64,000 bases of DNA from Tipula vernalis (taxonomy: Eukaryota > Arthropoda > Insecta > Diptera > Tipulidae): the NCBI GenBank assembly GCA_958295665.1, contig OY282558.1, positions 313,320,092-313,384,091 of the forward strand, written 5' to 3'. The notes below the pieces were generated by a model, which did not search any database, was not told where the DNA came from, and saw only the letters and a list, made by a program, of their open reading frames with translations. This document shows positions 29,222 through 64,000 of this stretch, in pieces. The translations under genes were made by a program, and so were the position numbers. The first letter of the stretch is position 1; the number at the start of each line of letters is the position of its first letter.

Positions 29222-29259
29222 ATTTTATAAACTATTTTATAATAAATAAAATGGAATAG

Positions 29260-30770: not shown

Positions 30771-31074
30771 AAGATGCGTTTCAAAAAACGATTTTTCCGC
30801 CATGTAGTACAATAAATTATTTTATTTTATGTTATGTTGATATAAAACAAAAATGGGTTATAAATTATAGTGATCAAATTATAAAGTAATAAAAGATTTT
30901 CTCTAAAATTGTCCCATAATTCCCGTTAAAGAATATTTAATAATTTAATCACATAATTCAAAAACACTTTTAACGAAATTTTCGGATTAGTTATCACGTG
31001 AAACATTTTTTTTAAATCTTCTTTCAAATAAATTGATTTCAATCGATTAAGTGATGGAGAATTTCATGAAAATT

Positions 31075-31196
31075 CGGCCTTTTTACCCAATCGGCCTTTC
31101 CACAAGTTCGGCCATTCGACTATTCGGCCTTTAGACAAATTTGGCCTTTGGACATTCGGCCTTTCGACACTTTCGGCCTTTCGACCCAATGGGCCA
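31075..31196 (-). repeat. Right, inverted array of the 15-bp motif
   Basis: ATTCGGCCTTTCGAC-type copies, the complement of the left array. Confidence 0.85.
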
Positions 31197-31200
31197 TTAG

Positions 31201-39348: not shown

Positions 39349-39510
39349 CATCCCGAAAAAAAACTCTTCTAAAAGAAAAAGCCTCTCAGCCCGAAAAATA
39401 TTAAGAAATAACTCAAAATAACATTCCATCCCGAAAAAACTTCTTCTAACAGAAAAAGCCTCCCAGCCCGAAAAATATTAAGAAATAACTCAAAATAACA
39501 TTCCATCCCG
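39349..39510 (+). repeat. Two tandem units of about 77 bp
   Basis: CATCCCGAAAAAA recurs at 39349, 39427 and 39504. Each unit contains AGAAAAAGCCT and AATATTAAGAAATAACTC. Confidence 0.9.
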
Positions 39511-39654
39511 AAAAAAAATATATCTGGAATTAAATTTTTTTCGTCATTTTCGGTTTATTAATAATTTATTAATTTATCTGTTAATACAAACGAATATGTA
39601 AAATGTGTACTAATATTTAATTGAGGGAGCGACAATGTTAAAAAATTGCTCAAG

Positions 39655-40192: not shown

Positions 40193-43100
40193 GTGTCCAC
40201 AGGGATTTCCAAACATATCGGCTGATGCCAAAAGACAGTTTAGACTTTCCTGGGTGCAATCTATATAGCCACATTGCCATATGAGGTCCATTTAAGGTTC
40301 TTACAAAATATTGTTAAAACACCATTTGTAAAAAATGTAAAATTTTATTGAAATATCTCAATATCTCATCACTTGGCCGTGTCCACAGGGATTTCCAAAT
40401 ATATCGGCTGATGCCAAAAGACAGTTTAGACTTCCCTGGGTGCAATCTATATAGCCACATTGCCATATGAGGTCCATTTAAGGTTCTTACAAAATATTGT
40501 TAAAACGCCATTTGTACAAAATGTAAAATTTTATTGAAATATCTCAATATCTCATCACTTGGCCGTGTCCACAGGGATTTCCAAACATATCGGCTGATGC
40601 CAAAAGACAGTTTAGACTTCCCTGGGTGCAATCTATATAGCCACATTGCCATATGAGGTCCATTTAAGGTTCTTACAAAATATTGTTAAAACGCCATTTG
40701 TACAAAATGTAAAATTTTATTGAAATATCTCAATATCTCATCAGTTGGCCGTGTCCACAGGGATTTCCAAACATATCGGCTGATGCCAAAAGACAGTTTA
40801 GACTTCCCTGGGTGCAATCTATATAGCCACATTGCCATATGAGGTCCATTTAAGGTTCTTACAAAATATTGTTAAAACGCCATTTGTAAAAAATGTAAAA
40901 TTTTATTGAAATATCTCAATATCTCATCACTTGGCCGTGTCCACAGGGATTTCCAAACATATCGGCTGATGCCAAAAGACAGTTTAGACTTCCCTGGGTG
41001 CAATCTATATAGCCACATTGCCATATGAGGTCCATTTAAGGTTCTTACAAAATATTGTTAAAACACCATTTGTAAAAAATGTAAAATTTTATTGAAATAT
41101 CTCAATATCTCATCACTTGGCCGTGTCCACAGGGATTTCCAAATATATCGGCTGATGCCAAAAGACAGTTTAGACTTCCCTGGGTGCAATCTATATAGCC
41201 ACATTGCCATATGAGGTCCATTTAAGGTTCTTACAAAATATTGTTAAAACGCCATTTGTACAAAATGTAAAATTTTATTGAAATATCTCAATATCTCATC
41301 ACTTGGCCGTGTCCACAGGGATTTCCAAACATATCGGCTGATGCCAAAAGACAGTTTAGACTTCCCTGGGTGCAATCTATATAGCCACATTGCCATATGA
41401 GGTCCATTTAAGGTTCTTACAAAATATTGTTAAAACGCCATTTGTACAAAATGTAAAATTTTATTGAAATATCTCAATATCTCATCAGTTGGCCGTGTCC
41501 ACAGGGATTTCCAAACATATCGGCTGATGCCAAAAGACAGTTTAGACTTCCCTGGGTGCAATCTATATAGCCACATTGCCATATGAGGTCCATTTAAGGT
41601 TCTTACAAAATATTGTTAAAACGCCATTTGTAAAAAATGTAAAATTTTATTGAAATATCTCAATATCTCATCACTTGGCCGTGTCCACAGGGATTTCCAA
41701 ACATATCGGCTGATGCCAAAAGACAGTTTAGACTTCCCTGGGTGCAATCTATATAGCCACATTGCCATATGAGGTCCATTTAAGGTTCTTACAAAATATT
41801 GTTAAAACGCCATTTGTACAAAATGTAAAATTTTATTGAAATATCTCAATATCTCATCACTTGGCCGTGTCCACAGGGATTTCCAAACATATCGGCTGAT
41901 GCCAAAAGACAGTTTAGACTTCCCTGGGTGCAATCTATATAGCCACATTGCCATATGAGGTCCATTTAAGGTTCTTACAAAATATTGTTAAAACGCCATT
42001 TGTACAAAATGTAAAATTTTATTGAAATATCTCAATATCTCATCACTTGGCCGTGTCCACAGGGATTTCCAAACATATCGGCTGATGCCAAAAGACAGTT
42101 TAGACTTCCCTGGGTGCAATCTATATAGCCACATTGCCATATGAGGTCCATTTAAGGTTCTTACAAAATATTGTTAAAACGCCATTTGTACAAAATGTAA
42201 AATTTTATTGAAATATCTCAATATCTCATCAGTTGGCCGTGTCCACAGGGATTTCCAAACATATCGGCTGATGCCAAAAGACAGTTTAGACTTCCCTGGG
42301 TGCAATCTATATAGCCACATTGCCATATGAGGTCCATTTAAGGTTCTTACAAAATATTGTTAAAACGCCATTTGTAAAAAATGTAAAATTTTATTGAAAT
42401 ATCTCAATATCTCATCACTTGGCCGTGTCCACAGGGATTTCCAAACATATCGGCTGATGCCAAAAGACAGTTTAGACTTCCCTGGGTGCAATCTATATAG
42501 CCACATTGCCATATGAGGTCCATTTAAGGTTCTTACAAAATATTGTTAAAACGCCATTTGTACAAAATGTAAAATTTTATTGAAATATCTCAATATCTCA
42601 TCACTTGGCCGTGTCCACAGGGATTTCCAAACATATCGGCTGATGCCAAAAGACAGTTTAGACTTCCCTGGGTGCAATCTATATAGCCACATTGCCATAT
42701 GAGGTCCATTTAAGGTTCTTACAAAATATTGTTAAAACGCCATTTGTACAAAATGTAAAATTTTATTGAAATATCTCAATATCTCATCACTTGGCCGTGT
42801 CCACAGGGATTTCCAAACATATCGGCTGATGCCAAAAGACAGTTTAGACTTCCCTGGGTGCAATCTATATAGCCACATTGCCATATGAGGTCCATTTAAG
42901 GTTCTTACAAAATATTGTTAAAACGCCATTTGTACAAAATGTAAAATTTTATTGAAATATCTCAATATCTCATCACTTGGCCGTGTCCACAGGGATTTCC
43001 AAACATATCGGCTGATGCCAAAAGACAGTTTAGACTTCCCTGGGTGCAATCTATATAGCCACATTGCCATATGAGGTCCATTTAAGGTTCTTACAAAATA

Positions 43101-46100
43101 TTGTTAAAACGCCATTTGTACAAAATGTAAAATTTTATTGAAATATCTCAATATCTCATCACTTGGCCGTGTCCACAGGGATTTCCAAACATATCGGCTG
43201 ATGCCAAAAGACAGTTTAGACTTCCCTGGGTGCAATCTATATAGCCACATTGCCATATGAGGTCCATTTAAGGTTCTTACAAAATATTGTTAAAACGCCA
43301 TTTGTACAAAATGTAAAATTTTATTGAAATATCTCAATATCTCATCAGTTGGCCGTGTCCACAGGGATTTCCAAACATATCGGCTGATGCCAAAAGACAG
43401 TTTAGACTTCCCTGGGTGCAATCTATATAGCCACATTGCCATATGAGGTCCATTTAAGGTTCTTACAAAATATTGTTAAAACGCCATTTGTAAAAAATGT
43501 AAAATTTTATTGAAATATCTCAATATCTCATCACTTGGCCGTGTCCACAGGGATTTCCAAACATATCGGCTGATGCCAAAAGACAGTTTAGACTTCCCTG
43601 GGTGCAATCTATATAGCCACATTGCCATATGAGGTCCATTTAAGGTTCTTACAAAATATTGTTAAAACGCCATTTGTACAAAATGTAAAATTTTATTGAA
43701 ATATCTCAATATCTCATCACTTGGCCGTGTCCACAGGGATTTCCAAACATATCGGCTGATGCCAAAAGACAGTTTAGACTTCCCTGGGTGCAATCTATAT
43801 AGCCACATTGCCATATGAGGTCCATTTAAGGTTCTTACAAAATATTGTTAAAACGCCATTTGTACAAAATGTAAAATTTTATTGAAATATCTCAATATCT
43901 CATCACTTGGCCGTGTCCACAGGGATTTCCAAACATATCGGCTGATGCCAAAAGACAGTTTAGACTTCCCTGGGTGCAATCTATATAGCCACATTGCCAT
44001 ATGAGGTCCATTTAAGGTTCTTACAAAATATTGTTAAAACGCCATTTGTACAAAATGTAAAATTTTATTGAAATATCTCAATATCTCATCAGTTGGCCGT
44101 GTCCACAGGGATTTCCAAACATATCGGCTGATGCCAAAAGACAGTTTAGACTTCCCTGGGTGCAATCTATATAGCCACATTGCCATATGAGGTCCATTTA
44201 AGGTTCTTACAAAATATTGTTAAAACGCCATTTGTAAAAAATGTAAAATTTTATTGAAATATCTCAATATCTCATCACTTGGCCGTGTCCACAGGGATTT
44301 CCAAACATATCGGCTGATGCCAAAAGACAGTTTAGACTTCCCTGGGTGCAATCTATATAGCCACATTGCCATATGAGGTCCATTTAAGGTTCTTACAAAA
44401 TATTGTTAAAACGCCATTTGTACAAAATGTAAAATTTTATTGAAATATCTCAATATCTCATCAGTTGGCCGTGTCCACAGGGATTTCCAAACATATCGGC
44501 TGATGCCAAAAGACAGTTTAGACTTCCCTGGGTGCAATCTATATAGCCACATTGCCATATGAGGTCCATTTAAGGTTCTTACAAAATATTGTTAAAACGC
44601 CATTTGTAAAAAATGTAAAATTTTATTGAAATATCTCAATATCTCATCACTTGGCCGTGTCCACAGGGATTTCCAAACATATCGGCTGATGCCAAAAGAC
44701 AGTTTAGACTTCCCTGGGTGCAATCTATATAGCCACATTGCCATATGAGGTCCATTTAAGGTTCTTACAAAATATTGTTAAAACGCCATTTGTACAAAAT
44801 GTAAAATTTTATTGAAATATCTCAATATCTCATCACTTGGCCGTGTCCACAGGGATTTCCAAACATATCGGCTGATGCCAAAAGACAGTTTAGACTTCCC
44901 TGGGTGCAATCTATATAGCCACATTGCCATATGAGGTCCATTTAAGGTTCTTACAAAATATTGTTAAAACGCCATTTGTACAAAATGTAAAATTTTATTG
45001 AAATATCTCAATATCTCATCACTTGGCCGTGTCCACAGGGATTTCCAAACATATCGGCTGATGCCAAAAGACAGTTTAGACTTCCCTGGGTGCAATCTAT
45101 ATAGCCACATTGCCATATGAGGTCCATTTAAGGTTCTTACAAAATATTGTTAAAACGCCATTTGTACAAAATGTAAAATTTTATTGAAATATCTCAATAT
45201 CTCATCAGTTGGCCGTGTCCACAGAGATTTCCAAACATATCGGCTGATGCCAAAAGACAGTTTAGACTTCCCTGGGTGCAATCTATATAGCCACATTGCC
45301 ATATGAGGTCCATTTAAGGTTCTTACAAAATATTGTTAAAACGCCATTTGTACAAAATGTAAAATTTTATTGAAATATCTCAATATCTCATCACTTGGCC
45401 GTGTCCACAGGGATTTCCAAACATATCGGCTGATGCCAAAAGACAGTTTAGACTTCCCTGGGTGCAATCTATATAGCCACATTGCCATATGAGGTCCATT
45501 TAAGGTTCTTACAAAATATTGTTAAAACGCCATTTGTAAAAAATGTAAAATTTTATTGAAATATCTCAATATCTCATCACTTGGCCGTGTCCACAGGGAT
45601 TTCCAAACATATCGGCTGATGCCAAAAGACAGTTTAGACTTCCCTGGGTGCAATCTATATAGCCACATTGCCATATGAGGTCCATTTAAGGTTCTTACAA
45701 AATATTGTTAAAACGCCATTTGTACAAAATGTAAAATTTTATTGAAATATCTCAATATCTCATCACTTGGCCGTGTCCACAGGGATTTCCAAACATATCG
45801 GCTGATGCCAAAAGACAGTTTAGACTTCCCTGGGTGCAATCTATATAGCCACATTGCCATATGAGGTCCATTTAAGGTTCTTACAAAATATTGTTAAAAC
45901 GCCATTTGTACAAAATGTAAAATTTTATTGAAATATCTCAATATCTCATCACTTGGCCGTGTCCACAGGGATTTCCAAACATATCGGCTGATGCCAAAAG
46001 ACAGTTTAGACTTCCCTGGGTGCAATCTATATAGCCACATTGCCATATGAGGTCCATTTAAGGTTCTTACAAAATATTGTTAAAACGCCATTTGTAAAAA

Positions 46101-49100
46101 ATGTAAAATTTTATTGAAATATCTCAATATCTCATCACTTGGCCGTGTCCACAGGGATTTCCAAACATATCGGCTGATGCCAAAAGACAGTTTAGACTTC
46201 CCTGGGTGCAATCTATATAGCCACATTGCCATATGAGGTCCATTTAAGGTTCTTACAAAATATTGTTAAAACGCCATTTGTACAAAATGTAAAATTTTAT
46301 TGAAATATCTCAATATCTCATCACTTGGCCGTGTCCACAGGGATTTCCAAACATATCGGCTGATGCCAAAAGACAGTTTAGACTTCCCTGGGTGCAATCT
46401 ATATAGCCACATTGCCATATGAGGTCCATTTAAGGTTCTTACAAAATATTGTTAAAACGCCATTTGTACAAAATGTAAAATTTTATTGAAATATCTCAAT
46501 ATCTCATCAGTTGGCCGTGTCCACAGGGATTTCCAAACATATCGGCTGATGCCAAAAGACAGTTTAGACTTCCCTGGGTGCAATCTATATAGCCACATTG
46601 CCATATGAGGTCCATTTAAGGTTCTTACAAAATATTGTTAAAACGCCATTTGTAAAAAATGTAAAATTTTATTGAAATATCTCAATATCTCATCACTTGG
46701 CCGTGTCCACAGGGATTTCCAAACATATCGGCTGATGCCAAAAGACAGTTTAGACTTCCCTGGGTGCAATCTATATAGCCACATTGCCATATGAGGTCCA
46801 TTTAAGGTTCTTACAAAATATTGTTAAAACGCCATTTGTACAAAATGTAAAATTTTATTGAAATATCTCAATATCTCATCAGTTGGCCGTGTCCACAGGG
46901 ATTTCCAAACATATCGGCTGATGCCAAAAGACAGTTTAGACTTCCCTGGGTGCAATCTATATAGCCACATTGCCATATGAGGTCCATTTAAGGTTCTTAC
47001 AAAATATTGTTAAAACGCCATTTGTAAAAAATGTAAAATTTTATTGAAATATCTCAATATCTCATCACTTGGCCGTGTCCACAGGGATTTCCAAACATAT
47101 CGGCTGATGCCAAAAGACAGTTTAGACTTCCCTGGGTGCAATCTATATAGCCACATTGCCATATGAGGTCCATTTAAGGTTCTTACAAAATATTGTTAAA
47201 ACGCCATTTGTACAAAATGTAAAATTTTATTGAAATATCTCAATATCTCATCACTTGGCCGTGTCCACAGGGATTTCCAAACATATCGGCTGATGCCAAA
47301 AGACAGTTTAGACTTCCCTGGGTGCAATCTATATAGCCACATTGCCATATGAGGTCCATTTAAGGTTCTTACAAAATATTGTTAAAACGCCATTTGTACA
47401 AAATGTAAAATTTTATTGAAATATCTCAATATCTCATCACTTGGCCGTGTCCACAGGGATTTCCAAACATATCGGCTGATGCCAAAAGACAGTTTAGACT
47501 TCCCTGGGTGCAATCTATATAGCCACATTGCCATATGAGGTCCATTTAAGGTTCTTACAAAATATTGTTAAAACGCCATTTGTACAAAATGTAAAATTTT
47601 ATTGAAATATCTCAATATCTCATCAGTTGGCCGTGTCCACAGAGATTTCCAAACATATCGGCTGATGCCAAAAGACAGTTTAGACTTCCCTGGGTGCAAT
47701 CTATATAGCCACATTGCCATATGAGGTCCATTTAAGGTTCTTACAAAATATTGTTAAAACGCCATTTGTAAAAAATGTAAAATTTTATTGAAATATCTCA
47801 ATATCTCATCACTTGGCCGTGTCCACAGGGATTTCCAAACATATCGGCTGATGCCAAAAGACAGTTTAGACTTCCCTGGGTGCAATCTATATAGCCACAT
47901 TGCCATATGAGGTCCATTTAAGGTTCTTACAAAATATTGTTAAAACGCCATTTGTACAAAATGTAAAATTTTATTGAAATATCTCAATATCTCATCACTT
48001 GGCCGTGTCCACAGGGATTTCCAAACATATCGGCTGATGCCAAAAGACAGTTTAGACTTCCCTGGGTGCAATCTATATAGCCACATTGCCATATGAGGTC
48101 CATTTAAGGTTCTTACAAAATATTGTTAAAACGCCATTTGTACAAAATGTAAAATTTTATTGAAATATCTCAATATCTCATCACTTGGCCGTGTCCACAG
48201 GGATTTCCAAACATATCGGCTGATGCCAAAAGACAGTTTAGACTTCCCTGGGTGCAATCTATATAGCCACATTGCCATATGAGGTCCATTTAAGGTTCTT
48301 ACAAAATATTGTTAAAACGCCATTTGTACAAAATGTAAAATTTTATTGAAATATCTCAATATCTCATCAGTTGGCCGTGTCCACAGAGATTTCCAAACAT
48401 ATCGGCTGATGCCAAAAGACAGTTTAGACTTCCCTGGGTGCAATCTATATAGCCACATTGCCATATGAGGTCCATTTAAGGTTCTTACAAAATATTGTTA
48501 AAACGCCATTTGTACAAAATGTAAAATTTTATTGAAATATCTCAATATCTCATCAGTTGGCCGTGTCCACAGGGATTTCCAAACATATCGGCTGATGCCA
48601 AAAGACAGTTTAGACTTCCCTGGGTGCAATCTATATAGCCACATTGCCATATGAGGTCCATTTAAGGTTCTTACAAAATATTGTTAAAACGCCATTTGTA
48701 CAAAATGTAAAATTTTATTGAAATATCTCAATATCTCATCACTTGGCCGTGTCCACAGGGATTTCCAAACATATCGGCTGATGCCAAAAGACAGTTTAGA
48801 CTTCCCTGGGTGCAATCTATATAGCCACATTGCCATATGAGGTCCATTTAAGGTTCTTACAAAATATTGTTAAAACGCCATTTGTACAAAATGTAAAATT
48901 TTATTGAAATATCTCAATATCTCATCACTTGGCCGTGTCCACAGGGATTTCCAAACATATCGGCTGATGCCAAAAGACAGTTTAGACTTCCCTGGGTGCA
49001 ATCTATATAGCCACATTGCCATATGAGGTCCATTTAAGGTTCTTACAAAATATTGTTAAAACGCCATTTGTACAAAATGTAAAATTTTATTGAAATATCT

Positions 49101-52100
49101 CAATATCTCATCACTTGGCCGTGTCCACAGGGATTTCCAAACATATCGGCTGATGCCAAAAGACAGTTTAGACTTCCCTGGGTGCAATCTATATAGCCAC
49201 ATTGCCATATGAGGTCCATTTAAGGTTCTTACAAAATATTGTTAAAACGCCATTTGTACAAAATGTAAAATTTTATTGAAATATCTCAATATCTCATCAC
49301 TTGGCCGTGTCCACAGGGATTTCCAAACATATCGGCTGATGCCAAAAGACAGTTTAGACTTTCCTGGGTGCAATCTATATAGCCACATTGCCATATGAGG
49401 TCCATTTAAGGTTCTTACAAAATATTGTTAAAACACCATTTGTAAAAAATGTAAAATTTTATTGAAATATCTCAATATCTCATCACTTGGCCGTGTCCAC
49501 AGGGATTTCCAAATATATCGGCTGATGCCAAAAGACAGTTTAGACTTCCCTGGGTGCAATCTATATAGCCACATTGCCATATGAGGTCCATTTAAGGTTC
49601 TTACAAAATATTGTTAAAACGCCATTTGTAAAAAATGTAAAATTTTATTGAAATATCTCAATATCTCATCACTTGGCCGTGTCCACAGGGATTTCCAAAC
49701 ATATCGGCTGATGCCAAAAGACAGTTTAGACTTCCCTGGGTGCAATCTATATAGCCACATTGCCATATGAGGTCCATTTAAGGTTCTTACAAAATATTGT
49801 TAAAACGCCATTTGTACAAAATGTAAAATTTTATTGAAATATCTCAATATCTCATCACTTGGCCGTGTCCACAGGGATTTCCAAACATATCGGCTGATGC
49901 CAAAAGACAGTTTAGACTTCCCTGGGTGCAATCTATATAGCCACATTGCCATATGAGGTCCATTTAAGGTTCTTACAAAATATTGTTAAAACACCATTTG
50001 TAAAAAATGTAAAATTTTATTGAAATATCTCAATATCTCATCACTTGGCCGTGTCCACAGGGATTTCCAAATATATCGGCTGATGCCAAAAGACAGTTTA
50101 GACTTCCCTGGGTGCAATCTATATAGCCACATTGCCATATGAGGTCCATTTAAGGTTCTTACAAAATATTGTTAAAACGCCATTTGTACAAAATGTAAAA
50201 TTTTATTGAAATATCTCAATATCTCATCACTTGGCCGTGTCCACAGGGATTTCCAAACATATCGGCTGATGCCAAAAGACAGTTTAGACTTCCCTGGGTG
50301 CAATCTATATAGCCACATTGCCATATGAGGTCCATTTAAGGTTCTTACAAAATATTGTTAAAACGCCATTTGTACAAAATGTAAAATTTTATTGAAATAT
50401 CTCAATATCTCATCAGTTGGCCGTGTCCACAGGGATTTCCAAACATATCGGCTGATGCCAAAAGACAGTTTAGACTTCCCTGGGTGCAATCTATATAGCC
50501 ACATTGCCATATGAGGTCCATTTAAGGTTCTTACAAAATATTGTTAAAACGCCATTTGTACAAAATGTAAAATTTTATTGAAATATCTCAATATCTCATC
50601 ACTTGGCCGTGTCCACAGGGATTTCCAAACATATCGGCTGATGCCAAAAGACAGTTTAGACTTCCCTGTGTGCAATCTATATAGCCACATTGCCATATGA
50701 GGTCCATTTAAGGTTCTTACAAAATATTGTTAAAACGCCATTTGTACAAAATGTAAAATTTTATTGAAATATCTCAATATCTCATCACTTGGCCGTGTCC
50801 ACAGGGATTTCCAAACATATCGGCTGATGCCAAAAGACAGTTTAGACTTCCCTGGGTGCAATCTATATAGCCACATTGCCATATGAGGTCCATTTAAGGT
50901 TCTTACAAAATATTGTTAAAACGCCATTTGTACAAAATGTAAAATTTTATTGAAATATCTCAATATCTCATCACTTGGCCGTGTCCACAGGGATTTCCAA
51001 ACATATCGGCTGATGCCAAAAGACAGTTTAGACTTCCCTGGGTGCAATCTATATAGCCACATTGCCATATGAGGTCCATTTAAGGTTCTTACAAAATATT
51101 GTTAAAACGCCATTTGTACAAAATGTAAAATTTTATTGAAATATCTCAATATCTCATCACTTGGCCGTGTCCACAGGGATTTCCAAACATATCGGCTGAT
51201 GCCAAAAGACAGTTTAGACTTTCCTGGGTGCAATCTATATAGCCACATTGCCATATGAGGTCCATTTAAGGTTCTTACAAAATATTGTTAAAACACCATT
51301 TGTAAAAAATGTAAAATTTTATTGAAATATCTCAATATCTCATCACTTGGCCGTGTCCACAGGGATTTCCAAATATATCGGCTGATGCCAAAAGACAGTT
51401 TAGACTTCCCTGGGTGCAATCTATATAGCCACATTGCCATATGAGGTCCATTTAAGGTTCTTACAAAATATTGTTAAAACGCCATTTGTACAAAATGTAA
51501 AATTTTATTGAAATATCTCAATATCTCATCAGTTGGCCGTGTCCACAGGGATTTCCAAACATATCGGCTGATGCCAAAAGACAGTTTAGACTTCCCTGGG
51601 TGCAATCTATATAGCCACATTGCCATATGAGGTCCATTTAAGGTTCTTACAAAATATTGTTAAAACGCCATTTGTAAAAAATGTAAAATTTTATTGAAAT
51701 ATCTCAATATCTCATCACTTGGCCGTGTCCACAGGGATTTCCAAACATATCGGCTGATGCCAAAAGACAGTTTAGACTTCCCTGGGTGCAATCTATATAG
51801 CCACATTGCCATATGAGGTCCATTTAAGGTTCTTACAAAATATTGTTAAAACGCCATTTGTACAAAATGTAAAATTTTATTGAAATATCTCAATATCTCA
51901 TCACTTGGCCGTGTCCACAGGGATTTCCAAACATATCGGCTGATGCCAAAAGACAGTTTAGACTTCCCTGGGTGCAATCTATATAGCCACATTGCCATAT
52001 GAGGTCCATTTAAGGTTCTTACAAAATATTGTTAAAACGCCATTTGTACAAAATGTAAAATTTTATTGAAATATCTCAATATCTCATCACTTGGCCGTGT

Positions 52101-55100
52101 CCACAGGGATTTCCAAACATATCGGCTGATGCCAAAAGACAGTTTAGACTTCCCTGGGTGCAATCTATATAGCCACATTGCCATATGAGGTCCATTTAAG
52201 GTTCTTACAAAATATTGTTAAAACGCCATTTGTACAAAATGTAAAATTTTATTGAAATATCTCAATATCTCATCACTTGGCCGTGTCCACAGGGATTTCC
52301 AAACATATCGGCTGATGCCAAAAGACAGTTTAGACTTCCCTGGGTGCAATCTATATAGCCACATTGCCATATGAGGTCCATTTAAGGTTCTTACAAAATA
52401 TTGTTAAAACGCCATTTGTACAAAATGTAAAATTTTATTGAAATATCTCAATATCTCATCAGTTGGCCGTGTCCACAGGGATTTCCAAACATATCGGCTG
52501 ATGCCAAAAGACAGTTTAGACTTCCCTGGGTGCAATCTATATAGCCACATTGCCATATGAGGTCCATTTAAGGTTCTTACAAAATATTGTTAAAACGCCA
52601 TTTGTAAAAAATGTAAAATTTTATTGAAATATCTCAATATCTCATCACTTGGCCGTGTCCACAGGGATTTCCAAACATATCGGCTGATGCCAAAAGACAG
52701 TTTAGACTTCCCTGGGTGCAATCTATATAGCCACATTGCCATATGAGGTCCATTTAAGGTTCTTACAAAATATTGTTAAAACGCCATTTGTACAAAATGT
52801 AAAATTTTATTGAAATATCTCAATATCTCATCACTTGGCCGTGTCCACAGGGATTTCCAAACATATCGGCTGATGCCAAAAGACAGTTTAGACTTCCCTG
52901 GGTGCAATCTATATAGCCACATTGCCATATGAGGTCCATTTAAGGTTCTTACAAAATATTGTTAAAACGCCATTTGTACAAAATGTAAAATTTTATTGAA
53001 ATATCTCAATATCTCATCACTTGGCCGTGTCCACAGGGATTTCCAAACATATCGGCTGATGCCAAAAGACAGTTTAGACTTCCCTGGGTGCAATCTATAT
53101 AGCCACATTGCCATATGAGGTCCATTTAAGGTTCTTACAAAATATTGTTAAAACGCCATTTGTACAAAATGTAAAATTTTATTGAAATATCTCAATATCT
53201 CATCACTTGGCCGTGTCCACAGGGATTTCCAAACATATCGGCTGATGCCAAAAGACAGTTTAGACTTCCCTGGGTGCAATCTATATAGCCACATTGCCAT
53301 ATGAGGTCCATTTAAGGTTCTTACAAAATATTGTTAAAACGCCATTTGTACAAAATGTAAAATTTTATTGAAATATCTCAATATCTCATCACTTGGCCGT
53401 GTCCACAGAGATTTCCAAACATATCGGCTGATGCCAAAAGACAGTTTAGACTTCCCTGAGTGCAATCTATATAGCCACATTGCCATATGAGGTCCATTTA
53501 AGGTTCTTACAAAATATTGTTAAAACGCCATTTGTAAAAAATGTAAAATTTTATTGAAATATCTCAATATCTCATCACTTGGCCGTGTCCACAGAGATTT
53601 CCAAACATATCGGCTGATGCCAAAAGACAGTTTAGACTTCCCTGAGTGCAATCTATATAGCCACATTGCCATATGAGGTCCATTTAAGGTTCTTACAAAA
53701 TATTGTTAAAACGCCATTTGTAAAAAATGTAAAATTTTATTGAAATATCTCAATATCTCATCACTTGGCCGTGTCCACAGGGATTTCCAAACATATCGGC
53801 TGATGCCAAAAGATAGTTTAGACTTCCCTGGGTGCAATCTATATAGCCACATTGCCATATGAGGTCCATTTAAGGTTCTTACAAAATATTGTTAAAACGC
53901 CATTTGTACAAAATGTAAAATTTTATTGAAATATCTCAATATCTCATCACTTGGCCGTGTCCACAGGGATTTCCAAACATATCGGCTGATGCCAAAAGAC
54001 AGTTTAGACTTCCCTGGGTGCAATCTATATAGCCACATTGCCATATGAGGTCCATTTAAGGTTCTTACAAAATATTGTTAAAACGCCATTTGTACAAAAT
54101 GTAAAATTTTATTGAAATATCTCAATATCTCATCAGTTGGCCGTGTCCACAGGGATTTCCAAACATATCGGCTGATGCCAAAAGACAGTTTAGACTTCCC
54201 TGGGTGCAATCTATATAGCCACATTGCCATATGAGGTCCATTTAAGGTTCTTACAAAATATTGTTAAAACGCCATTTGTAAAAAATGTAAAATTTTATTG
54301 AAATATCTCAATATCTCATCACTTGGCCGTGTCCACAGGGATTTCCAAACATATCGGCTGATGCCAATAGACAGTTTAGACTTCCCTGGGTGCAATCTAT
54401 ATAGCCACATTGCCATATGAGGTCCATTTAAGGTTCTTACAAAATATTGTTAAAACGCCATTTGTACAAAATGTAAAATTTTATTGAAATATCTCAATAT
54501 CTCATCACTTGGCCGTGTCCCCAGGGATTTCCAAACATATCAGCTGATGCCAAAAGACAGTTTAGACTTCCCTGAGTGCAATCTATATAGCCACATTGCC
54601 ATATGAGGTCCATTTAAGGTTCTTACAAAATATTGTTAAAACGCCATTTGTAAAAAATGTAAAATTTTATTGAAATATCTCAATATCTCATCACTTGGCC
54701 GTGTCCACAGGGATTTCCAAACATATCGGCTGATGCCAAAAGACAGTTTAGACTTCCCTGGGTGCAATCTATATAGCCACATTGCCATATGAGGTCCATT
54801 TAAGGTTCTTACAAAATATTGTTAAAACGCCATTTGTACAAAATGTAAAATTTTATTGAAATATCTCAATATCTCATCACTTGGCCGTGTCCACAGGGAT
54901 TTCCAAACATATCGGCTGATGCCAAAAGACAGTTTAGACTTCCCTGGGTGCAATCTATATAGCCACATTGCCATATGAGGTCCATTTAAGGTTCTTACAA
55001 AATATTGTTAAAACGCCATTTGTAAAAAATGTAAAATTTTATTGAAATATCTCAATATCTCATCACTTGGCCGTGTCCACAGGGATTTCCAAACATATCG

Positions 55101-58100
55101 GCTGATGCCAAAAGACAGTTTAGACTTCCCTGGGTGCAATCTATATAGCCACATTGCCATATGAGGTCCATTTAAGGTTCTTACAAAATATTGTTAAAAC
55201 GCCATTTGTACAAAATGTAAAATTTTATTGAAATATCTCAATATCTCATCACTTGGCCGTGTCCACAGGGATTTCCAAACATATCGGCTGATGCCAAAAG
55301 ACAGTTTAGACTTCCCTGAGTGCAATCTATATAGCCACATTGCCATATGAGGTCCATTTAAGGTTCTTACAAAATATTGTTAAAACGCCATTTGTAAAAA
55401 ATGTAAAATTTTATTGAAATATCTCAATATCTCATCACTTGGCCGTGTCCACAGGGATTTCCAAACATATCGGCTGATGCCAAAAGACAGTTTAGACTTC
55501 CCTGGGTGCAATCTATATAGCCACATTGCCATATGAGGTCCATTTAAGGTTCTTACAAAATATTGTTAAAACGCCATTTGTACAAAATGTAAAATTTTAT
55601 TGAAATATCTCCATATCTCATCACTTGGCCGTGTCCACAGGGATTTCCAAACATATCGGCTGATGCCATAAGATAGTTTTGACTTCCCTGAGTGCAATCT
55701 ATATAGCCACATTGCCATATGAGGTCCATTTAAGGTTCTTACAAAATATTGTTAAAACGCCATTTGTAAAAAATGTAAAATTTTATTGAAATATCTCAAT
55801 ATCTCATCACTTGGCCGTGTCCACAGGGATTTCCAAACATATCGGCTGATGCCAAAAGACAGTTTAGACTTCCCTGGGTGCAATCTATATAGCCACATTG
55901 CCATATGAGGTCCATTTAAGGTTCTTACAAAATATTGTTAAAACGCCATTTGTAAAAAATGTAAAATTTTATTGAAATATCTCAATATCTCATCACTTGG
56001 CCGTGTCCACAGGGATTTCCAAACATATCGGCTGATGCCAAAAGACAGTTTAGACTTCCCTGAGTGCAATCTATATAGCCACATTGCCATATGAGGTACA
56101 TTTAAGGTTCTTACAAAATATTGTTAAAACGCCATTTGTAAAAAATGTAAAATTTTATTGAAATATCTCAATATCTCATCACTTGGCCGTGTCCACAGGG
56201 ATTTCCAAACATATCGGCTGATGCCAAAAGACAGTTTAGACTTCCCTGGGTGCAATCTATATAGCCACATTGCCATATGAGGTCCATTTAAGGTTCTTAC
56301 AAAATATTGTTAAAACGCCATTTGTAAAAAATGTAAAATTTTATTGAAATATCTCAATATCTCATCACTTGGCCGTGTCCACAGGGATTTCCAAACATAT
56401 CGGCTGATGCCATAAGATAGTTTTGACTTCCCTGAGTGCAATCTATATAGCCACATTGCCATATGAGGTCCATTTAAGGTTCTTACAAAATATTGTTAAA
56501 ACGCCATTTGTAAAAAATGTAAAATTTTATTGAAATATCTCAATATCTCATCACTTGGCCGTGTCCACAGGGATTTCCAAACATATCGGCTGATGCCAAA
56601 AGACAGTTTAGACTTCCCTGGGTGCAATCTATATAGCCACATTGCCATATGAGGTCCATTTAAGGTTCTTACAAAATATTGTTAAAACGCCATTTGTAAA
56701 AAATGTAAAATTTTATTGAAATATCTCAATATCTCATCACTTGGCCGTGTCCACAGGGATTTCCAAACATATCGGCTGATGCCAAAAGACAGTTTAGACT
56801 TCCCTGAGTGCAATCTATATAGCCACATTGCCATATGAGGTACATTTAAGGTTCTTACAAAATATTGTTAAAACGCCATTTGTAAAAAATGTAAAATTTT
56901 ATTGAAATATCTCAATATCTCATCACTTGGCCGTGTCCACAGGGATTTCCAAACATATCGGCTGATGCCAAAAGACAGTTTAGACTTCCCTGGGTGCAAT
57001 CTATATAGCCACATTGCCATATGAGGTCCATTTAAGGTTCTTACAAAATATTGTTAAAACGCCATTTGTAAAAAATGTAAAATTTTATTGAAATATCTCA
57101 ATATCTCATCACTTGGCCGTGTCCACAGGGATTTCCAAACATATCGGCTGATGCCAAAAGACAGTTTAGACTTTCCTGAGTGCAATCTATATAGCCACAT
57201 TGCCATATGAGGTCCATTTAAGGTTCTTACAAAATATTGTTAAAACGCCATTTGTAAAAAATGTAAAATTTTATTGAAATATCTCAATATCTCATCACTT
57301 GGCCGTGTCCACAGGGATTTCCAAACATATCGGCTGATGCCAAAAGATAGTTTTGACTTCCCTGGGTGCAATCTATATAGCCACATTGCCATATGAGGTC
57401 CATTTAAGGTTCTTACAAAATATTGTTAAAACACCATTTGTAAAAAATGTAAAATTTTATTGAAATATCTCAATATCTCATCACTTGGCCGTGTCCACAG
57501 GGATTTCCAAACATATCGGCTGATGCCAAAAGACAGTTTAGACTTCCCTGGGTGCAATCTATATAGCCACATTGCCATATGAGGTCCATTTAAGGTTCTT
57601 ACAAAATATTGTTAAAACACCATTTGTAAAAAATGTAAAATTTTATTGAAATATCTCAATATCTCATCACTTGGCCGTGTCCACAGGGATTTCCAAACAT
57701 ATCGGCTGATGCCAAAAGACAGTTTAGACTTCCCTGGGTGCAATCTATATAGCCACATTGCCATATGAGGTCCATTTAAGGTTCTTACAAAATATTGTTA
57801 AAACGCCATTTGTACAAAATGTAAAATTTTATTGAAATATCTCAATATCTCATCACTTGGCCGTGTCCACAGGGATTTCCAAACATATCGGCTGATGCCA
57901 AAAGACAGTTTAGACTTCCCTGGGTGCAATCTATATAGCCACATTGCCATATGAGGTCCATTTAAGGTTCTTACAAAATATTGTTAAAACACCATTTGTA
58001 AAAAATGTAAAATTTTATTGAAATATCTCAATATCTCATCACTTGGCCGTGTCCACAGGGATTTCCAAACATATCGGCTGATGCCAAAAGACAGTTTAGA

Positions 58101-59560
58101 CTTCCCTGAGTGCAATCTATATAGCCACATTGCCATATGAGGTCCATTTAAGGTTCTTACAAAATATTGTTAAAACGCCATTTGTAAAAAATGTAAAATT
58201 TTATTGAAATATCTCAATATCTCATCACTTGGCCGTGTCCACAGGGATTTCCAAACATATCGGCTGATGCCAAAAGACAGTTTAGACTTCCCTGGGTGCA
58301 ATCTATATAGCCACATTGCCATATGAGGTCCATTTAAGGTTCTTACAAAATATTGTTAAAACACCATTTGTAAAAAATGTAAAATTTTATTGAAATATCT
58401 CAATATCTCATCACTTGGCCGTGTCCACAGGGATTTCCAAACATATCGGCTGATGCCAAAAGACAGCTTAGACTTCCCTGGGTGCAATCTATATAGCCAC
58501 ATTGCCATATGAGGTCCATTTAAGGTTCTTACAAAATATTGTTAAAACGCCATTTGTAAAAAATGTAAAATTTTATTGAAATATCTCAATATCTCATCAC
58601 TTGGCCGTGTCCACAGGGATTTCCAAACATATCGGCTGATGCCAAAAGACAGTTTAGACTTCCCTGGGTGCAATCTATATAGCCACATTGCCATATGAGG
58701 TCCATTTAAGGTTCTTACAAAATATTGTTAAAACGCCATTTGTAAAAAATGTAAAATTTTATTGAAATATCTCAATATCTCATCACTTGGCCGTGTCCAC
58801 AGGGATTTCCAAACATATCGGCTGACGCCAAAAGACAGTTTAGACTTCCCTGGGTGCAATCTATATAGCCACATTGCCATATAAGGTCCATTTAAGGTTC
58901 TTACAAAATATTGTTAAAACGCCATTTGTACAAAATGTAAAATTTTATTGAAATATCTCAATATCTCATCACTTGGCCGTGTCCACAGGGATTTCCAAAC
59001 ATATCGGCTGATGCCAAAAGACAGTTTAGACTTCCCTGGGTGCAATCTATATAGCCACATTGCCATATGAGGTCCATTTAAGGTTCTTACAAAATATTGT
59101 TAAAACGCCATTTGTACAAAATGTAAAATTTTATTGAAATATCTCAATATTTCATCACTTGGCCGTGTCCACAGGGATTTCCAAACATATCGGCTGATGC
59201 CAAAAGACAGTTTAGACTTCCCTGGGTGCAATCTATATAGCCACATTGCCATATGAGGTCCATTTAAGGTTCTTACAAAATATTGTTAAAACGCCATTTG
59301 TAAAAAATGTAAAATTTTATTGAAATATCTCAATATCTCATCACTTGGCCGTGTCCACAGGGATTTCCAAACATATCGGCTGATGCCAAAAGACAGTTTA
59401 GACTTCCCTGGGTGCAATCTATATAGCCACATTGCCATATGAGGTCCATTTAAGGTTCTTACAAAATATTGTTAAAACGCCATTTGTAAAAAATGTAAAA
59501 TTTTATTGAAATATCTCAATATCTCATCACTTGGCCGTGTCCACAGGGATTTCCAAACAC
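40193..59560 (+). repeat. Satellite array: 104 tandem 186-bp units plus a 24-bp partial unit
   Basis: GTGTCCACAGGGATTTCCAA recurs every 186 bp, first at 40193 and last at 59537. The difference, 19,344, is exactly 104 x 186, so there is no net insertion or deletion in the array. Units contain GCAATCTATATAGCCACATT, CATATGAGGTCCATTTAAGG and GTAAAATTTTATTGAAATAT. Variation is limited to recurring substitutions (CACTTGG/CAGTTGG, GTACAAAATG/GTAAAAAATG, ACGCC/ACACC, CTGGG/CTGAG). No frame of length is kept through the array, so it is non-coding. Unit length near one nucleosome repeat is typical of centromeric or pericentromeric satellites; such a role here is inference. Confidence 0.98.
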
Positions 59561-59882
59561 AAGCTATATTGCCCTATTGCCATATGAGGTCCATTTAAAG
59601 TCGGATCCATTACTCTATCTTTATATCTCGATATGTAAAGGCTTATAAGCCTATTTCTATCGTTAACCTGATCAAGGAATACATCGAAATGCCCCTGACG
59701 ACAACGACAATTGGTCTGTGATTATCATTTGATTTTAGGGTGACCTAATTCTAATAAATAGCATTGTCGCTTTTCGATGAGCGTATGATCTACGCGAACT
59801 AGCAAAAAAAAAAAATTAATTCGAAAATAAATATTAACATATATTTCATTTACAATTACATTTATTAAAATACTAAAAACTA
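59561..59882. other. Degenerate satellite edge and short spacer
   Basis: ATTGCCATATGAGGTCCATTT at 59577-59597 is a shortened, diverged satellite unit lacking about 70 bp. Then comes unique sequence including the palindrome AGGCTTATAAGCCT (59638-59651) and an A run (59804-59815), before the end of the transposase gene. No poly-A signal was assigned with confidence. Confidence 0.6.
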
Positions 59883-62024
59883 TTAATAATTAATTTTACT
59901 TTTTGTGTAAATAATTATATGAGGGTCAATTTTCTGGGCTTGTATATTTCTTATCACAGACACGCAACAACTTAAATCATCGTATTTTTTCCATTTATTA
60001 TTATTTTTGCCGTAAGTTATGAAGTGTCCTGTTCCCACATCCTGATGACTTACTAGAGAAACGAACTCATAAAATATATTGTTTAGTACCATGTTTGTCT
60101 GTATCTGATCTATAGTCGTGTTATGTTGTTCTTTGTACATGCGCTCAGTATAGATGCATACGATGTCTTGATAATCTACCGAATCGATTTGCATTTTACT
60201 GGGGCAATTATCGCAACCTTTCATGGGTATCTCCTGCAAACATGAACTGAGCTGTTTTAATCCGAAAGATCCTAGTTTGTCCATGTCCAGTAAAACTACA
60301 GATCTATCTTCTATGCAAATAGCTTCACATTCGTCGCATTTTAAATTGACTACTACGCTGGGGATATTTTTTAAAATTGTACTAGCTATATCTAGTATAC
60401 CACTATAACAGTCCTCATTTATCCCATATAAATCAATTAGGACTTCTTTACGAAGATTATATAAATCATATGATTTATCATTATTTATAACTTGATAAAT
60501 AATTTTTTGTATTTTATCTCCGTTTTCTAGGACTTCAAGTACTTTTTTATTATTGACTTCTGAAATATTTGCATAACCAAGGGCTAGTGCTTGAAGAAGT
60601 GAGTCAACGCAGCAAGAATTTTTGTAATATGTACAAGTTTTGCTTGCATTCTTAATCAATGTTATGGCCCTTTGGTTGTTTTCAAATAAGTTTTTCTTTT
60701 TTAATCCTGGCTGTGGTCTTTTTGGTGTTACCGTTTCAGACAATGAATTTTCAGTTAGTAGTCCAATTGTACTAATAGTACGTTCGTTAGCAGGTAACTG
60801 GTTAATTTTTTTAATAGTTTTTAAATTAAAATTATTGTTTTTTCCCTTAGGAGTCAAATTGTTCAAGTTTTTCCCCTTCCATACTGATTCTTCGTTTTGG
60901 ACATCCTGTAAGGTGAAATCTGTTGTTTTAGTATTTTTCGGTTTTTCTTTAATGAACTTTTTTAAAGATGAAGTTGGGATGTCGGCAATTAATCTTTTGT
61001 GTATAATTTTATTTCTACAATTAATTTCTCTTATAAAACGGCCCACTTTTGTCGGAAGTTTTCCAATTTTTGTTGATGTTTTCATCCGCCTTTTTATGAC
61101 AGCAATATAGTTTTCGATGTGGCTATTACTGTGCCTTGCTCCATTTTTTAAAATACCGCTCCACAAAGATAAATAAGTTATATACTTTTTCAAACTTAAT
61201 TCCAAAAATTTTAAATTATAAAAATTATTTAGCCCCCCAGTTACAGCAGCTTTGTCATCTAATACGCCGTCGCTTATTCTTTTAAAGTCTACATAGAATG
61301 GACTTCGTAAATAAATGGTTTTCCTAGCTTTTTCTGGCTTCGCTTTTTCTGGTACAAAATTGTCTTCTACGTTACTTTTGCTGCAAGTAATAGTTTCCCC
61401 TAGTATTGTTGTTATTAATTCCAAGGCATTTCTTACTTTAGAAGTAATTTGCTTGGATTTTAATAAAATTGAGAAATTAAGCCAAATCTCTTTAGCGGTC
61501 TCATAGTTTTTCGCCATGAATAATGATGCAAATATCTCTTGCACAATTTTTTGGGTTGAACCAATTTTAAAATGAATTTTTATATCTTGTGCCATAGTAT
61601 GTGACAAATGAGAACAGCACAGATACAATTTCACAACACTTTGTTTAGTTTTAGCACTACTCGTATCATCGTTAATAGCCCACTTATGAGTTATTTCCAA
61701 ATATTCAACGATACTCATGTGGTTGAACGCGTCCATTACAGAGTTAATTTCCGCAAATGAAAAATCCGTCACTACGGCATTAAATATCGGCCATTTCTTT
61801 AAATTTCTTTCTGTAAACAGACGATAAGATCTCAGCCAACCTCCAATTGTATCCATTGAATGACTCGCGCTTACCATATCTGTTATGGGATAAGGCGTAG
61901 TCTTTTCCGTACTATTAACCGCGGCCGGTACTATAATTGCATAGTAAAAAAATTGATTTACACGGTTTATACGGTGCTCTGACGAGGCTTCCAGTGGCGT
62001 CCATGTAAACGACGAGATCATCAT
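59883..62024 (-). CDS. MULE-like DDE transposase (C-terminal two catalytic residues) fused to a USP-like peptidase
   Basis: A 713-residue frame; the real protein probably enters it near 61950 from the upstream frame. Transposase half: TDFSFAEI (Asp87, second acidic residue), YLCCSHL (Cys136-x2-His139, the C-x2-H typical of Mutator-like transposases) and HSNSHIENYIAVIKRRM (Glu304, third acidic residue). After a Lys-rich linker (about 345-460), the C-terminal 250 residues match the ubiquitin-specific protease (C19) layout. They show a Cys box KNSCCVDSLLQALAL (Cys471), CDEC (563-566) and CDNC (604-607) as in the zinc-binding fingers, and a His box GTGHFITY (His667) followed by KWKKYDD (Asp682/683). 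A protease of this fold removes ubiquitin-like modifiers. Activity in this copy is not shown. Possible relation to FB-NOF or Phantom MULEs is unverified. Confidence 0.7.
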   Translation of the reverse strand: MMISSFTWTPLEASSEHRINRVNQFFYYAIIVPAAVNSTEKTTPYPITDMVSASHSMDTIGGWLRSYRLFTERNLKKWPIFNAVVTDFSFAEINSVMDAFNHMSIVEYLEITHKWAINDDTSSAKTKQSVVKLYLCCSHLSHTMAQDIKIHFKIGSTQKIVQEIFASLFMAKNYETAKEIWLNFSILLKSKQITSKVRNALELITTILGETITCSKSNVEDNFVPEKAKPEKARKTIYLRSPFYVDFKRISDGVLDDKAAVTGGLNNFYNLKFLELSLKKYITYLSLWSGILKNGARHSNSHIENYIAVIKRRMKTSTKIGKLPTKVGRFIREINCRNKIIHKRLIADIPTSSLKKFIKEKPKNTKTTDFTLQDVQNEESVWKGKNLNNLTPKGKNNNFNLKTIKKINQLPANERTISTIGLLTENSLSETVTPKRPQPGLKKKNLFENNQRAITLIKNASKTCTYYKNSCCVDSLLQALALGYANISEVNNKKVLEVLENGDKIQKIIYQVINNDKSYDLYNLRKEVLIDLYGINEDCYSGILDIASTILKNIPSVVVNLKCDECEAICIEDRSVVLLDMDKLGSFGLKQLSSCLQEIPMKGCDNCPSKMQIDSVDYQDIVCIYTERMYKEQHNTTIDQIQTNMVLNNIFYEFVSLVSHQDVGTGHFITYGKNNNKWKKYDDLSCCVSVIRNIQAQKIDPHIIIYTKSKINY

Positions 62025-62742
62025 CGACTTTAATATCTTGCATCAATTTCAATATCTCGTTTTGCTGTTTGCTGAAAGTTATTACAAGAAACGGTCGATA
62101 ACCAATTTTTTGTATAAATTGATTCTCCCCTTCGTTCTTCACCATTTCTTCACTGAGATCAGCGAAATCATTTGACGAGTTGTCTTGGCTTTGTAATGCT
62201 TCTGAACGGATCTTCCTCAACACATCGCTCGTTTTCGCTGTTTGGATTGTATTGTGCTTTATTGCGAAATCTGCATCCTCTTCCTCGATGAGCATTTCGC
62301 CAACAATTTCTGCAGAGTTTTTTAGAAGTTTTTTTTTATAAATGGCACGATTAAATTTAGTTGTTTTTTTAAATTTTTTATATGGATGCACAATGGGGTC
62401 ATTTGTACTATAAACTGAAAAATTCCCACTCGTTAATGTTCTGTTTACCAATTTATATTGTCGGCAAGTTTCATTTTCACTTTTGTGCCCACAGTAAGCC
62501 CTAATAGTGATATGGTTCGCACTAATATCATAGCCTTTAATGTTTATTTGACACCCACTCAGCTTGGTAAGGTTGTCTGAAATTACGTTTGAATAAACGT
62601 ACGAGTTGAAATTTTTCATTTGGCAAAAAAATATCACTCCAAACATCCAATGGAATATTAAGGTTATAATTTGATTGGTGGAATTTGCTGTTTCGCGAGG
62701 TTTGTTTTTTAAATTGAACAAGTTCACCTGTTTTATTAACAT
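61915..62742 (-). CDS. Middle part of the MULE-like transposase (first catalytic Asp)
   Basis: A 275-residue frame; the plausible part begins near SYVYSNVISDNLTKLSG. It has a Cys/His cluster (YCGHKSENETCRQY) that may be a DNA-binding zinc finger of the FLYWCH/WRKY-like kind, a basic region (PYKKFKKTTKFNRAIYKKK) and VVYMDATGSLVRAPYKP, which carries the first catalytic Asp (residue 248, codon 62001-61999). The frame then leaves the protein at a T7 run (A7 on the plus strand, 61946-61952), where shifting by one enters the downstream frame at FYYAIIVPA. The first ~40 residues overlap the upstream frame and are probably not translated. This and its neighbours are best read as one gene with two single-base frame breaks. 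Confidence 0.6.
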   Translation of the reverse strand: MLIKQVNLFNLKNKPRETANSTNQIITLIFHWMFGVIFFCQMKNFNSYVYSNVISDNLTKLSGCQINIKGYDISANHITIRAYCGHKSENETCRQYKLVNRTLTSGNFSVYSTNDPIVHPYKKFKKTTKFNRAIYKKKLLKNSAEIVGEMLIEEEDADFAIKHNTIQTAKTSDVLRKIRSEALQSQDNSSNDFADLSEEMVKNEGENQFIQKIGYRPFLVITFSKQQNEILKLMQDIKVDDDLVVYMDATGSLVRAPYKPCKSIFLLCNYSTGRG

Positions 62743-63310
62743 TTGGTTTCGTATTTAAATTGTTACTCTTTTTGCTAAATATCGTATCTTCTGAATGTTT
62801 TTCCGTTATATTTTCAAAGGCAATATTTTCGTCATTATTTTCCAAAAAATCAGTGCCAAAAATAAATAAGGTATCTACATCATTTTCAATGTGAATGTTT
62901 TCTAAATTTGTTGGGGGTTGCTCGATAATTGGAGAAGTAATAAAGTCTGGCACGCCATTCAGATGGTATTCCGAATTAATCGACTTATCTCCTGTTGGTA
63001 ACACCAGCTCATTATTTGATTGGATACTCTTTCTTGAATTTTCGGACTGAATGTTATAAGTTTTAAGTTTTTTCCTCCAAATATCATTTATTGCAATTCG
63101 ATTCTTCCTGATATTTTGACTTCCAATTAACTTGCAAATTTTTTCCATTTGTAATGTGTTCGACGTAGATATTATTACGTTGGGTTCTCTAATTAAACGC
63201 AATGCATTTTCTACAGAATTAATAGTAATTTGGTTACGACTCCGTTTATTATTGTATCTTGCAAAAACCATTTTGACGAGTATTAGGTAAATGAATATTA
63301 AATTAAACAA
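62537..63310 (-). CDS. N-terminal part of the MULE-like transposase gene
   Basis: A 257-residue frame; the start may be the internal Met of MVFARYNNKRSRNQ (63271) rather than the one at 63310, because the first 13 residues are hydrophobic and run into AT-rich leader. It has a basic start, an acidic/Asn-rich middle and SNYNLNIPLDVWSDIFLPNE near the end. After that the conserved reading appears to pass to the next frame between 62631 and 62610 (A5 and T7 runs). No domain is recognised in the first 200 residues. Upstream on the same strand lies a directly repeated AT-rich leader. Confidence 0.5.
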   Translation of the reverse strand: MFNLIFIYLILVKMVFARYNNKRSRNQITINSVENALRLIREPNVIISTSNTLQMEKICKLIGSQNIRKNRIAINDIWRKKLKTYNIQSENSRKSIQSNNELVLPTGDKSINSEYHLNGVPDFITSPIIEQPPTNLENIHIENDVDTLFIFGTDFLENNDENIAFENITEKHSEDTIFSKKSNNLNTKPNVNKTGELVQFKKQTSRNSKFHQSNYNLNIPLDVWSDIFLPNEKFQLVRLFKRNFRQPYQAEWVSNKH

Positions 63311-63341
63311 AAAGATGTAAATTTGTTAGTTAAATAAATAT

Positions 63342-63579
63342 ACGGTTGTAGGTATTAGTTTGAATTAATAATAACGGAAAATCCAAAACACAATTTTATA
63401 TATGCACTATTTTTGATAGTTAAAATAAAATCCACAAAACTTAGTTTAATAAACACTTTTTAACTTGTTTTAAATAATTACACGGTTGAAGATTAGTTTG
63501 AATTAATAATAACGGAAAATCCAAAACACAATTTTATTAAAAAATATTTTTAGTCTTTATATATGCACTATTTTTGATA
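63342..63579. repeat. Direct repeat upstream of the transposase gene
   Basis: ACGGTTGTAGGTATTAGTTT and following ~55 bp (63342-63399) recur at 63482-63537. A further shared piece TATATGCACTATTTTTGATA is at 63399-63418 and about 63559-63578. The copies are 140 bp apart. The position suggests a promoter or subterminal region of the transposon. Confidence 0.8.
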
Positions 63580-64000
63580 ACAACTATTAAAATATTTAAA
63601 AAATGACAGATCAAGACACTTGTTTTCTTTCACAAAGATTATTAATCACATGCAGAATAAAAAGACAAATAAAAGTTAGCACGTAAAAAACTAATAACAT
63701 AAACATCTGATAGAAGATCTGAGTTAAATGATTTCATCAAGCATGAATGATTAGAAAATGCATTTGATAAAACCGAACGATTATTAAAAAAATTGAAGAA
63801 AAGGCTGTAAAACAATAAAAGAATAATTTTAGAACAATGATAATTTTTGTTTTCAGGATCCCTATTTTATATCATAAAGAACTTATCAACCGGTGTTTAA
63901 GTCATAAAACATATAGATCCTCAATTCTAATTTAAGTGCACACACATATTTTCGACCGAATTTACTACAAAAGGGGAAACAATTTAATATACTGTACATA
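63580..64000. other. AT-rich sequence at the window end
   Basis: No gene or repeat recognised. The 5' end of the MULE-like element should lie here or beyond the window, but no terminal inverted repeat could be paired with the region around 59800-59880. Confidence 0.5.

Follow-up and report, generated by a model that had tools for sequence, protein, structure and literature searches.

What kind of genetic unit brings together a transposase, a domain resembling ubiquitin-specific proteases (USPs) and a long satellite array in the genome of the fly Tipula vernalis? We addressed this question in a stretch of 64,000 nucleotides (hereafter the window) at C1:313320092-313384091 of the 1.27-Gb genome. 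A first-pass annotation had described its minus-strand interval 59883-63310 as a single gene joining a Mutator-like transposase, with an Asp-Asp-Glu (DDE) core, to a USP deubiquitinase of peptidase family C19. We find that the gene belongs to one copy of a cut-and-paste transposon, Rehavkus-like and related to Mutator-like elements (MULEs), which has satellite arms and encodes a transposase joined to a predicted USPL1-like isopeptidase. This explanation, including the mechanism proposed below, is probable as a whole. The anatomy of the element, with its 9-bp duplication, its inverted arms and the conserved catalytic residues of both enzymes, is read from sequence, and the USP fold from a structural model; about anatomy and fold we have very little doubt.

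The transposase-protease gene and its copies

In the window the gene is not one open frame. According to the open reading frame (ORF) list, three overlapping minus-strand frames cover 59883-63310. The first (62537-63310) encodes the N-terminal region, with the Met of the protein of a close relative, copy L021, at about 63271. The second (61915-62742) supplies the first of the catalytic Asp residues, that of DATG, as well as a Cys/His motif of the form C-x19-C-x-H-x6-C. The remainder of the transposase core, with the TDFS Asp, CxxH and the HIENY Glu, is in the third (59883-62024, 713 aa), together with a linker and the predicted USP-fold, USPL1-like cysteine protease domain (59883-60692); neither this remainder nor the protease shares a frame with the DATG Asp. 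Combined, the three frames are the counterpart of a single 1129-residue frame in the close relatives L021, L022 and L024. Because the window gene is 99.5% identical to L021 DNA across 3443 bp, with two gap openings, it is a recently broken copy or carries two small assembly errors; by sequence comparison, the gene is uninterrupted elsewhere. Given these frame breaks, the window copy is probably inactive and would need the uninterrupted ones. Hence, the single gene of the first-pass annotation stands for the relatives, but not for the window itself. The motifs that it had named (DATG, TDFS, CxxH, HIENY, the Cys box, two CxxC pairs and the His box) are all present, and its residue numbers were right: Cys471 (60612-60614), His667 (60024-60026) and Asp682 (59979-59981) of the 713-aa frame correspond to C887, H1083 and D1098 of L021.

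In its own genome the family is represented by at least 66 matches to the 713-aa frame, with identities ranging from 100 down to 40%, some copies giving several rows; since 63 of 2397 first-look candidates were scored, copy number is a lower bound. We inspected 20 stretches of 10 kb holding 19 copies, of which 18 were readable (L038/L039 is largely masked). In 15 of these 18, a single frame runs from the DDE core through the triad of the protease; the exceptions are L023, which stops ahead of the His box, and L026 and L027, which are split. By a strict count, 13 of 16 single frames match all five motifs: L023 is without the His box, L022 is altered beside the conserved Asp, and L024 misses the strict His-box pattern with its His and Asp kept.

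The transposase core is conserved: both Asp, the His of CxxH and the Glu are found in 13 of 13 alignment rows, and the Cys of CxxH in 12 (Asp in P0005, a relative described below). No Pfam MULE model matches this core, and Pfam finds no PHD finger in ten full-length proteins or seven N-terminal pieces; L021 has a single Cys within residues 1-200. The Mutator-like label of the first-pass annotation therefore survives for the DDE residues, but not at the level of Pfam MULE models, and the relatives include a PHD-bearing, Rehavkus-like protein. By sequence, the transposase is Rehavkus-like and MULE-related; since no PHD finger was found, we do not file the element as Rehavkus proper.

An AlphaFold2 model of the C-terminal domain has a USP fold (predicted local distance difference test score, pLDDT, 83.7), and a Foldseek search with it returned 169 PDB chains at E <= 0.001, the best 50 listed being all of the USP family. 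A full-length model (pLDDT 57.2; predicted template modelling score 0.38) likewise gave USPs as its best 50 listed rows, and is uninformative on the transposase part. All 12 aligned rows conserve the Cys, His and Asp of the triad; outside the window's own subfamily, these rows are 34-40% identical to the window. The four finger cysteines, a putative zinc site, are kept in 11 of 12 (L026 has Trp replacing one Cys). The two findings that the first-pass annotation had named as speaking against it were absence of a USP-like fold and loss of Cys471 and His667; the fold was found and both residues are conserved. Model, Foldseek and alignment thus bear out that the transposase is fused to a cysteine protease of USP fold whose triad is the one predicted.

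Judging by the alignment and the model, the protease is very probably an active enzyme. We computed the ratio of nonsynonymous to synonymous divergence (dN/dS) for 14 pairs of copies, seven distant and seven near-identical. L028/L030 is the sole distant pair whose dS is usable in both parts; here dN/dS amounts to 0.11 in the protease, 0.14 in the transposase and 0.21 in the linker. Three features of these data count against reading much into them: dS is high in this pair (1.1 and 1.8), the six other distant pairs are saturated for at least one part, and the near-identical pairs give protease values of 0.26-0.56 where defined and above zero, from very few changes. The domain could instead be a catalytically dead structural or SUMO/ubiquitin-binding module, as its activity is predicted from sequence and model and inactive relatives of another transposon protease are described (insect iVTD; PMC9741609). 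We consider this very improbable, since the triad is intact at identities as low as 34-40% and the protease is as constrained as the transposase in the one usable pair.

Ends, arms and satellite

The element spans window coordinates 39324-68417 (29,094 bp, or 29.1 kb), running past the window's end, and is flanked by a 9-bp target site duplication. One copy of the duplication, TCAAAGCGT, occupies 39315-39323; the second lies beyond the window at C1:313388509-313388517 (window coordinate 68418-68426). We set these bounds because the outer terminus (ATGTATGTGAAGTTAGCCCG, 39324-39343) joined to TCAAAGCGT, sought genome-wide with up to two mismatches allowed, matched once, without mismatch (C1:313388497-313388517); a reversed control pattern likewise gave one match. 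The terminus is shared with the right ends of L026 and L030, which belong to other subfamilies. L026 is a 7881-bp element flanked by the duplication ATTTCATCA, and the 9-bp duplication typical of Rehavkus is present in both elements of which both ends were seen, L026 and the window copy.

Inside the terminus are a subterminal direct repeat (39348-39517; 77 bp x 2.2) bearing CCCGAAAAA motifs and the satellite array of the 3' arm (40193-59559), with 104 copies of a 186-bp unit over 19.4 kb at 99% matches. In inverted orientation to it, the 5' arm begins beyond the window's end, at window coordinate 65709. Within 59500-64000 we found only chance-like AT-rich inverted pairs and no true inverted repeats, because the element ends lie further out. 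One could suppose that array and gene are neighbours by accident and that the gene belongs to an ordinary short MULE, as the arms differ so much in length (19.4 kb in 3' against at most 2.7 kb in 5'). This is hardly credible: arrays of 173-186-bp units lie on both flanks of 17 of the 18 readable copies (the right side of the other, L025, is not within the fetched stretch), and their inverted orientation was demonstrated for L026 and the window copy, where the duplication outside the arms contradicts an accidental association. The 186-bp satellite adjoining the gene is part of the element, a link that the first-pass annotation had not made.

The 3' arm contains 99 exact copies of the CACAGGGATT box, a number that rises to 105 when one mismatch is tolerated; on the opposite strand none occurs at up to one mismatch, and the exact box is absent from window positions 1-39323. 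A CACAGRGATT-like box is common to the units of six of eight subfamilies in the same orientation, one mismatch allowed; composition shuffles reached at most four in 30 trials. Two points tell against a binding site shared by the whole family: two of the eight monomer families are without the box, and the shuffles preserved base composition only, such that the shared ancestry of the monomers is retained in the comparison. By eye, the satellite units of L035 and L036 are without the CACAGGGATT box, but have CATATCATGGGGATAAA in common.

Family and substrate of the protease

Three protein searches, each scoring the roughly 8000 candidates with most shared words, yielded the relatives P0001-P0010. 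The same transposase and protease architecture is found in P0001, P0002 and P0004. P0004 does not count as independent evidence, as it clusters with L030 and its source may be the same species or a close one. P0005 retains the Cys box and the finger cysteines but is truncated ahead of the His box, and in P0003 and P0006 the truncation comes sooner. P0007 and P0008 gave no protease match, in gene models that may be cut at introns, as that of P0009 seems to be. P0009 carries a PHD finger above cut-off, and P0010, from the wasp Eretmocerus hayati (Hymenoptera), has a Peptidase_C48 (Ulp1) domain at the same end (E 7e-13, above cut-off). In a tree rooted at its midpoint for drawing only, the 11 USPL1-like rows form one clade (100/99), adjoined by P0003 and P0007 (85/87); P0009, outside the USPL1-like clade, forms another group with P0010, P0008 and P0006 (87/80). 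P0005 sits on a very long branch, for which reason the fusion may have had one origin or several. Among viral contigs, 37 pattern matches included no relative, and a PHROGs search gave nothing useful.

The nearest known family of the protease is USPL1 (C98), as assigned from relatives and model. Human USPL1, described as a SUMO isopeptidase of peptidase family C98 (PMC8983731), is the leading match of the domain model in Foldseek (E 7.4e-11) and ranks first among the 17 rows of a sequence-profile search of the domain against PDB. One of these rows, Semaphorin 6D (E 1.3), is not a USP and was set aside. With Pfam, C98 was the better or only match in six of nine C-terminal pieces (L025, L027, L028, L029, L030 and L031). 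The C98 model PF15499 gave 14 matches in the T. vernalis genome, all above cut-off, and 0/14 in control genomes; four of the 14 are known transposon copies and one (L041) is a further transposon relic. The other nine, on contigs C1, C2 and C3, lie away from known transposon copies; a host USPL1 gene or additional relics may be among them. The USP fold of the first-pass annotation held, whereas the nearest known family is probably that of a SUMO isopeptidase instead of C19.

Several results weigh against so specific an assignment. Most Foldseek rows have a root-mean-square deviation above 7 Å and a template modelling score of about 0.5. The window's own protein gave no such profile match: neither the 713-aa frame nor its C-terminal piece matched UCH or C98 in Pfam-A, and a PDB sequence search with the 713-aa ORF gave only three weak ribosomal-protein rows (E 0.24-0.45). 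Full-length Pfam scans are misleading: for L033, the scan of the whole protein missed domains that its C-terminal piece revealed. In three of the nine pieces (L033, L035 and L036) UCH was the better or only match, above cut-off in L033. The residues that characterize USPL1 are also mixed. Its Phe457 and Tyr451 correspond to Tyr and His in ubiquitin USPs (PMC8983731); at these columns (Tyr451, Phe457), of which the first was positioned from the printed USPL1 profile alignment, our 12 rows have (Y,F) in six, (H,F) in two, the window and L021, and (Y,Y) and (F,Y) in two each. Therefore, judging from these residues, subfamilies may differ in substrate.

In another explanation, the domain is a ubiquitin-specific enzyme (C19) that spares the transposase or a partner from the proteasome, its resemblance to USPL1 being a general USP likeness. 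Besides the UCH matches, this explanation draws on VIA-align, which placed USP30 first, tied with USPL1; on a Tyr after the catalytic His, as in ubiquitin USPs, in L025, L026, L035, L036, P0001 and P0002; on the window's His at the Tyr451 column; and on P0009, whose C-terminal part resembles the first 23 positions of the UCH domain (E 0.0056, below cut-off). The rank of USPL1 in Foldseek and sequence profile, the six pieces favouring C98 and the six rows with the USPL1 pair make this explanation rather unlikely. For the substrate itself, the sequences lead us to lean towards SUMO over ubiquitin, as a preference and not a claim.

Known systems and a proposed role

Rehavkus elements are described with 9-bp duplications, minisatellites and a PHD finger (PMC6446971), and Rehavkus-1_TC of Tribolium castaneum as a 9.5-kb element with a 164-bp satellite in inverted termini, in arrays of mostly five and eight monomers (PMC10218199). 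The window element resembles them in its 9-bp duplication, MULE-like DDE core and satellite repeats in inverted termini, but differs by its missing PHD finger, its arm of 104 monomers, its 29.1-kb length and its USPL1-like protease. The main text of the Rehavkus paper does not contain 'protease', 'ubiquitin' or 'peptidase' (PMC6446971). That of a 2026 survey of arthropod MULEs does not contain 'protease' or 'ubiquitin'; it gives lengths of 1.4-10.0 kb, well below that of the window element, and a longest terminal inverted repeat of 1193 bp (PMC13359780). The foldback element Tetris of Drosophila virilis also has tandem repeats (about 220 bp) in inverted termini and 8-10 bp duplications, but its complete copies were reported without conserved ORFs (PMC4079207).

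Proteases on transposons are already known, and the USPL1-like type is a new variant. Ginger1 carries a C-terminal Ulp1 or OTU domain and Mutators (MULEs) carry Ulp1 (PMC2836005); they too join a ubiquitin/SUMO protease to a cut-and-paste transposase, but with Ulp1 (C48) or OTU rather than a USP/C98 enzyme. One protein of the protist Trichomonas vaginalis joins Peptidase C19 to a transposase of a different family, transposase_11 (PMC2836005). Helitrons carry active VTD deubiquitinases, of another protease family and on rolling-circle elements (PMC9741609). Our domain shares with USPL1 the fold, the Cys-His-Asp triad, the four finger cysteines and, in half of the rows, the Tyr451/Phe457 pair (PMC8983731); it departs from it by its fusion to a transposase, an identity of 14-16% in the structural alignments and a long loop ahead of the His in some rows. 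Among the literature titles and abstract openings listed (Repbase Reports and most subscription papers fall outside this scope), none describes a MULE or Rehavkus element with a domain of USP or USPL1 type.

Apart from this element, the window holds retroelement-like long frames of 1340 and 208 aa at 20339-24988 (minus strand), in which stretches resembling protease, reverse transcriptase and integrase were recognized by eye, and a 39-bp tandem repeat inside them (24642-24788). Another tandem array lies at 7079-7910, as five copies of 147 bp (7176-7910) or 2.8 of 294 bp. Short CGAAAGGCCGAAT-type repeat arrays at 29254-29440 and 31070-31203, on opposite strands and about 1.6 kb apart, resemble the arms of a small foldback element.

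How might such an element move? We suggest that the transposase binds a CACAGGGATT-like box that recurs in the satellite monomers. Its N-terminal Cys/His region, together with the arms that carry the boxes, would bring it to the ends, where the DDE core would cut, excise and insert the element. The isopeptidase would strip off SUMO or, less likely, ubiquitin, acting either on the transposase or on silencing proteins that assemble along the satellite arms, and the element would thereby be expressed or mobilised despite host repression. Satellite arms are likely heterochromatic. Because related copies keep the active site, removal of a host tag is probably part of the element's survival or movement. 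That it acts against silencing is a tentative proposal, made by analogy: in Drosophila cells, a Panx mutant without SUMO-acceptor lysines is reported to lose piRNA (PIWI-interacting RNA)-pathway silencing, which a SUMO fusion restores (PMC13195609). Alternatively, the protease may protect the transposase itself or be linked to DNA repair, as suggested for Ginger (PMC2836005).

A broader proposal, which we put forward as conjecture, is that two unrelated SUMO proteases, a USPL1-like one here and Ulp1 in the wasp, were independently gained at the same C-terminal position by relatives of one transposase, as SUMO removal would be needed against SUMO-dependent silencing of satellite arms that attract heterochromatin. 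On this view, the element would amount to a satellite that propels itself and carries its own enzyme against silencing. Should the protease prove to be a SUMO isopeptidase, transposase-borne de-SUMOylation would have been adopted with two enzyme folds in animals, in addition to the Ulp1 described in other Mutators (PMC2836005); this would suggest that SUMO acts generally as a barrier to transposition, an idea directly testable with the 270-residue domain. A satellite array of 19.4 kb tied to one transposon family also offers one route by which satellite DNA may spread through the genome.

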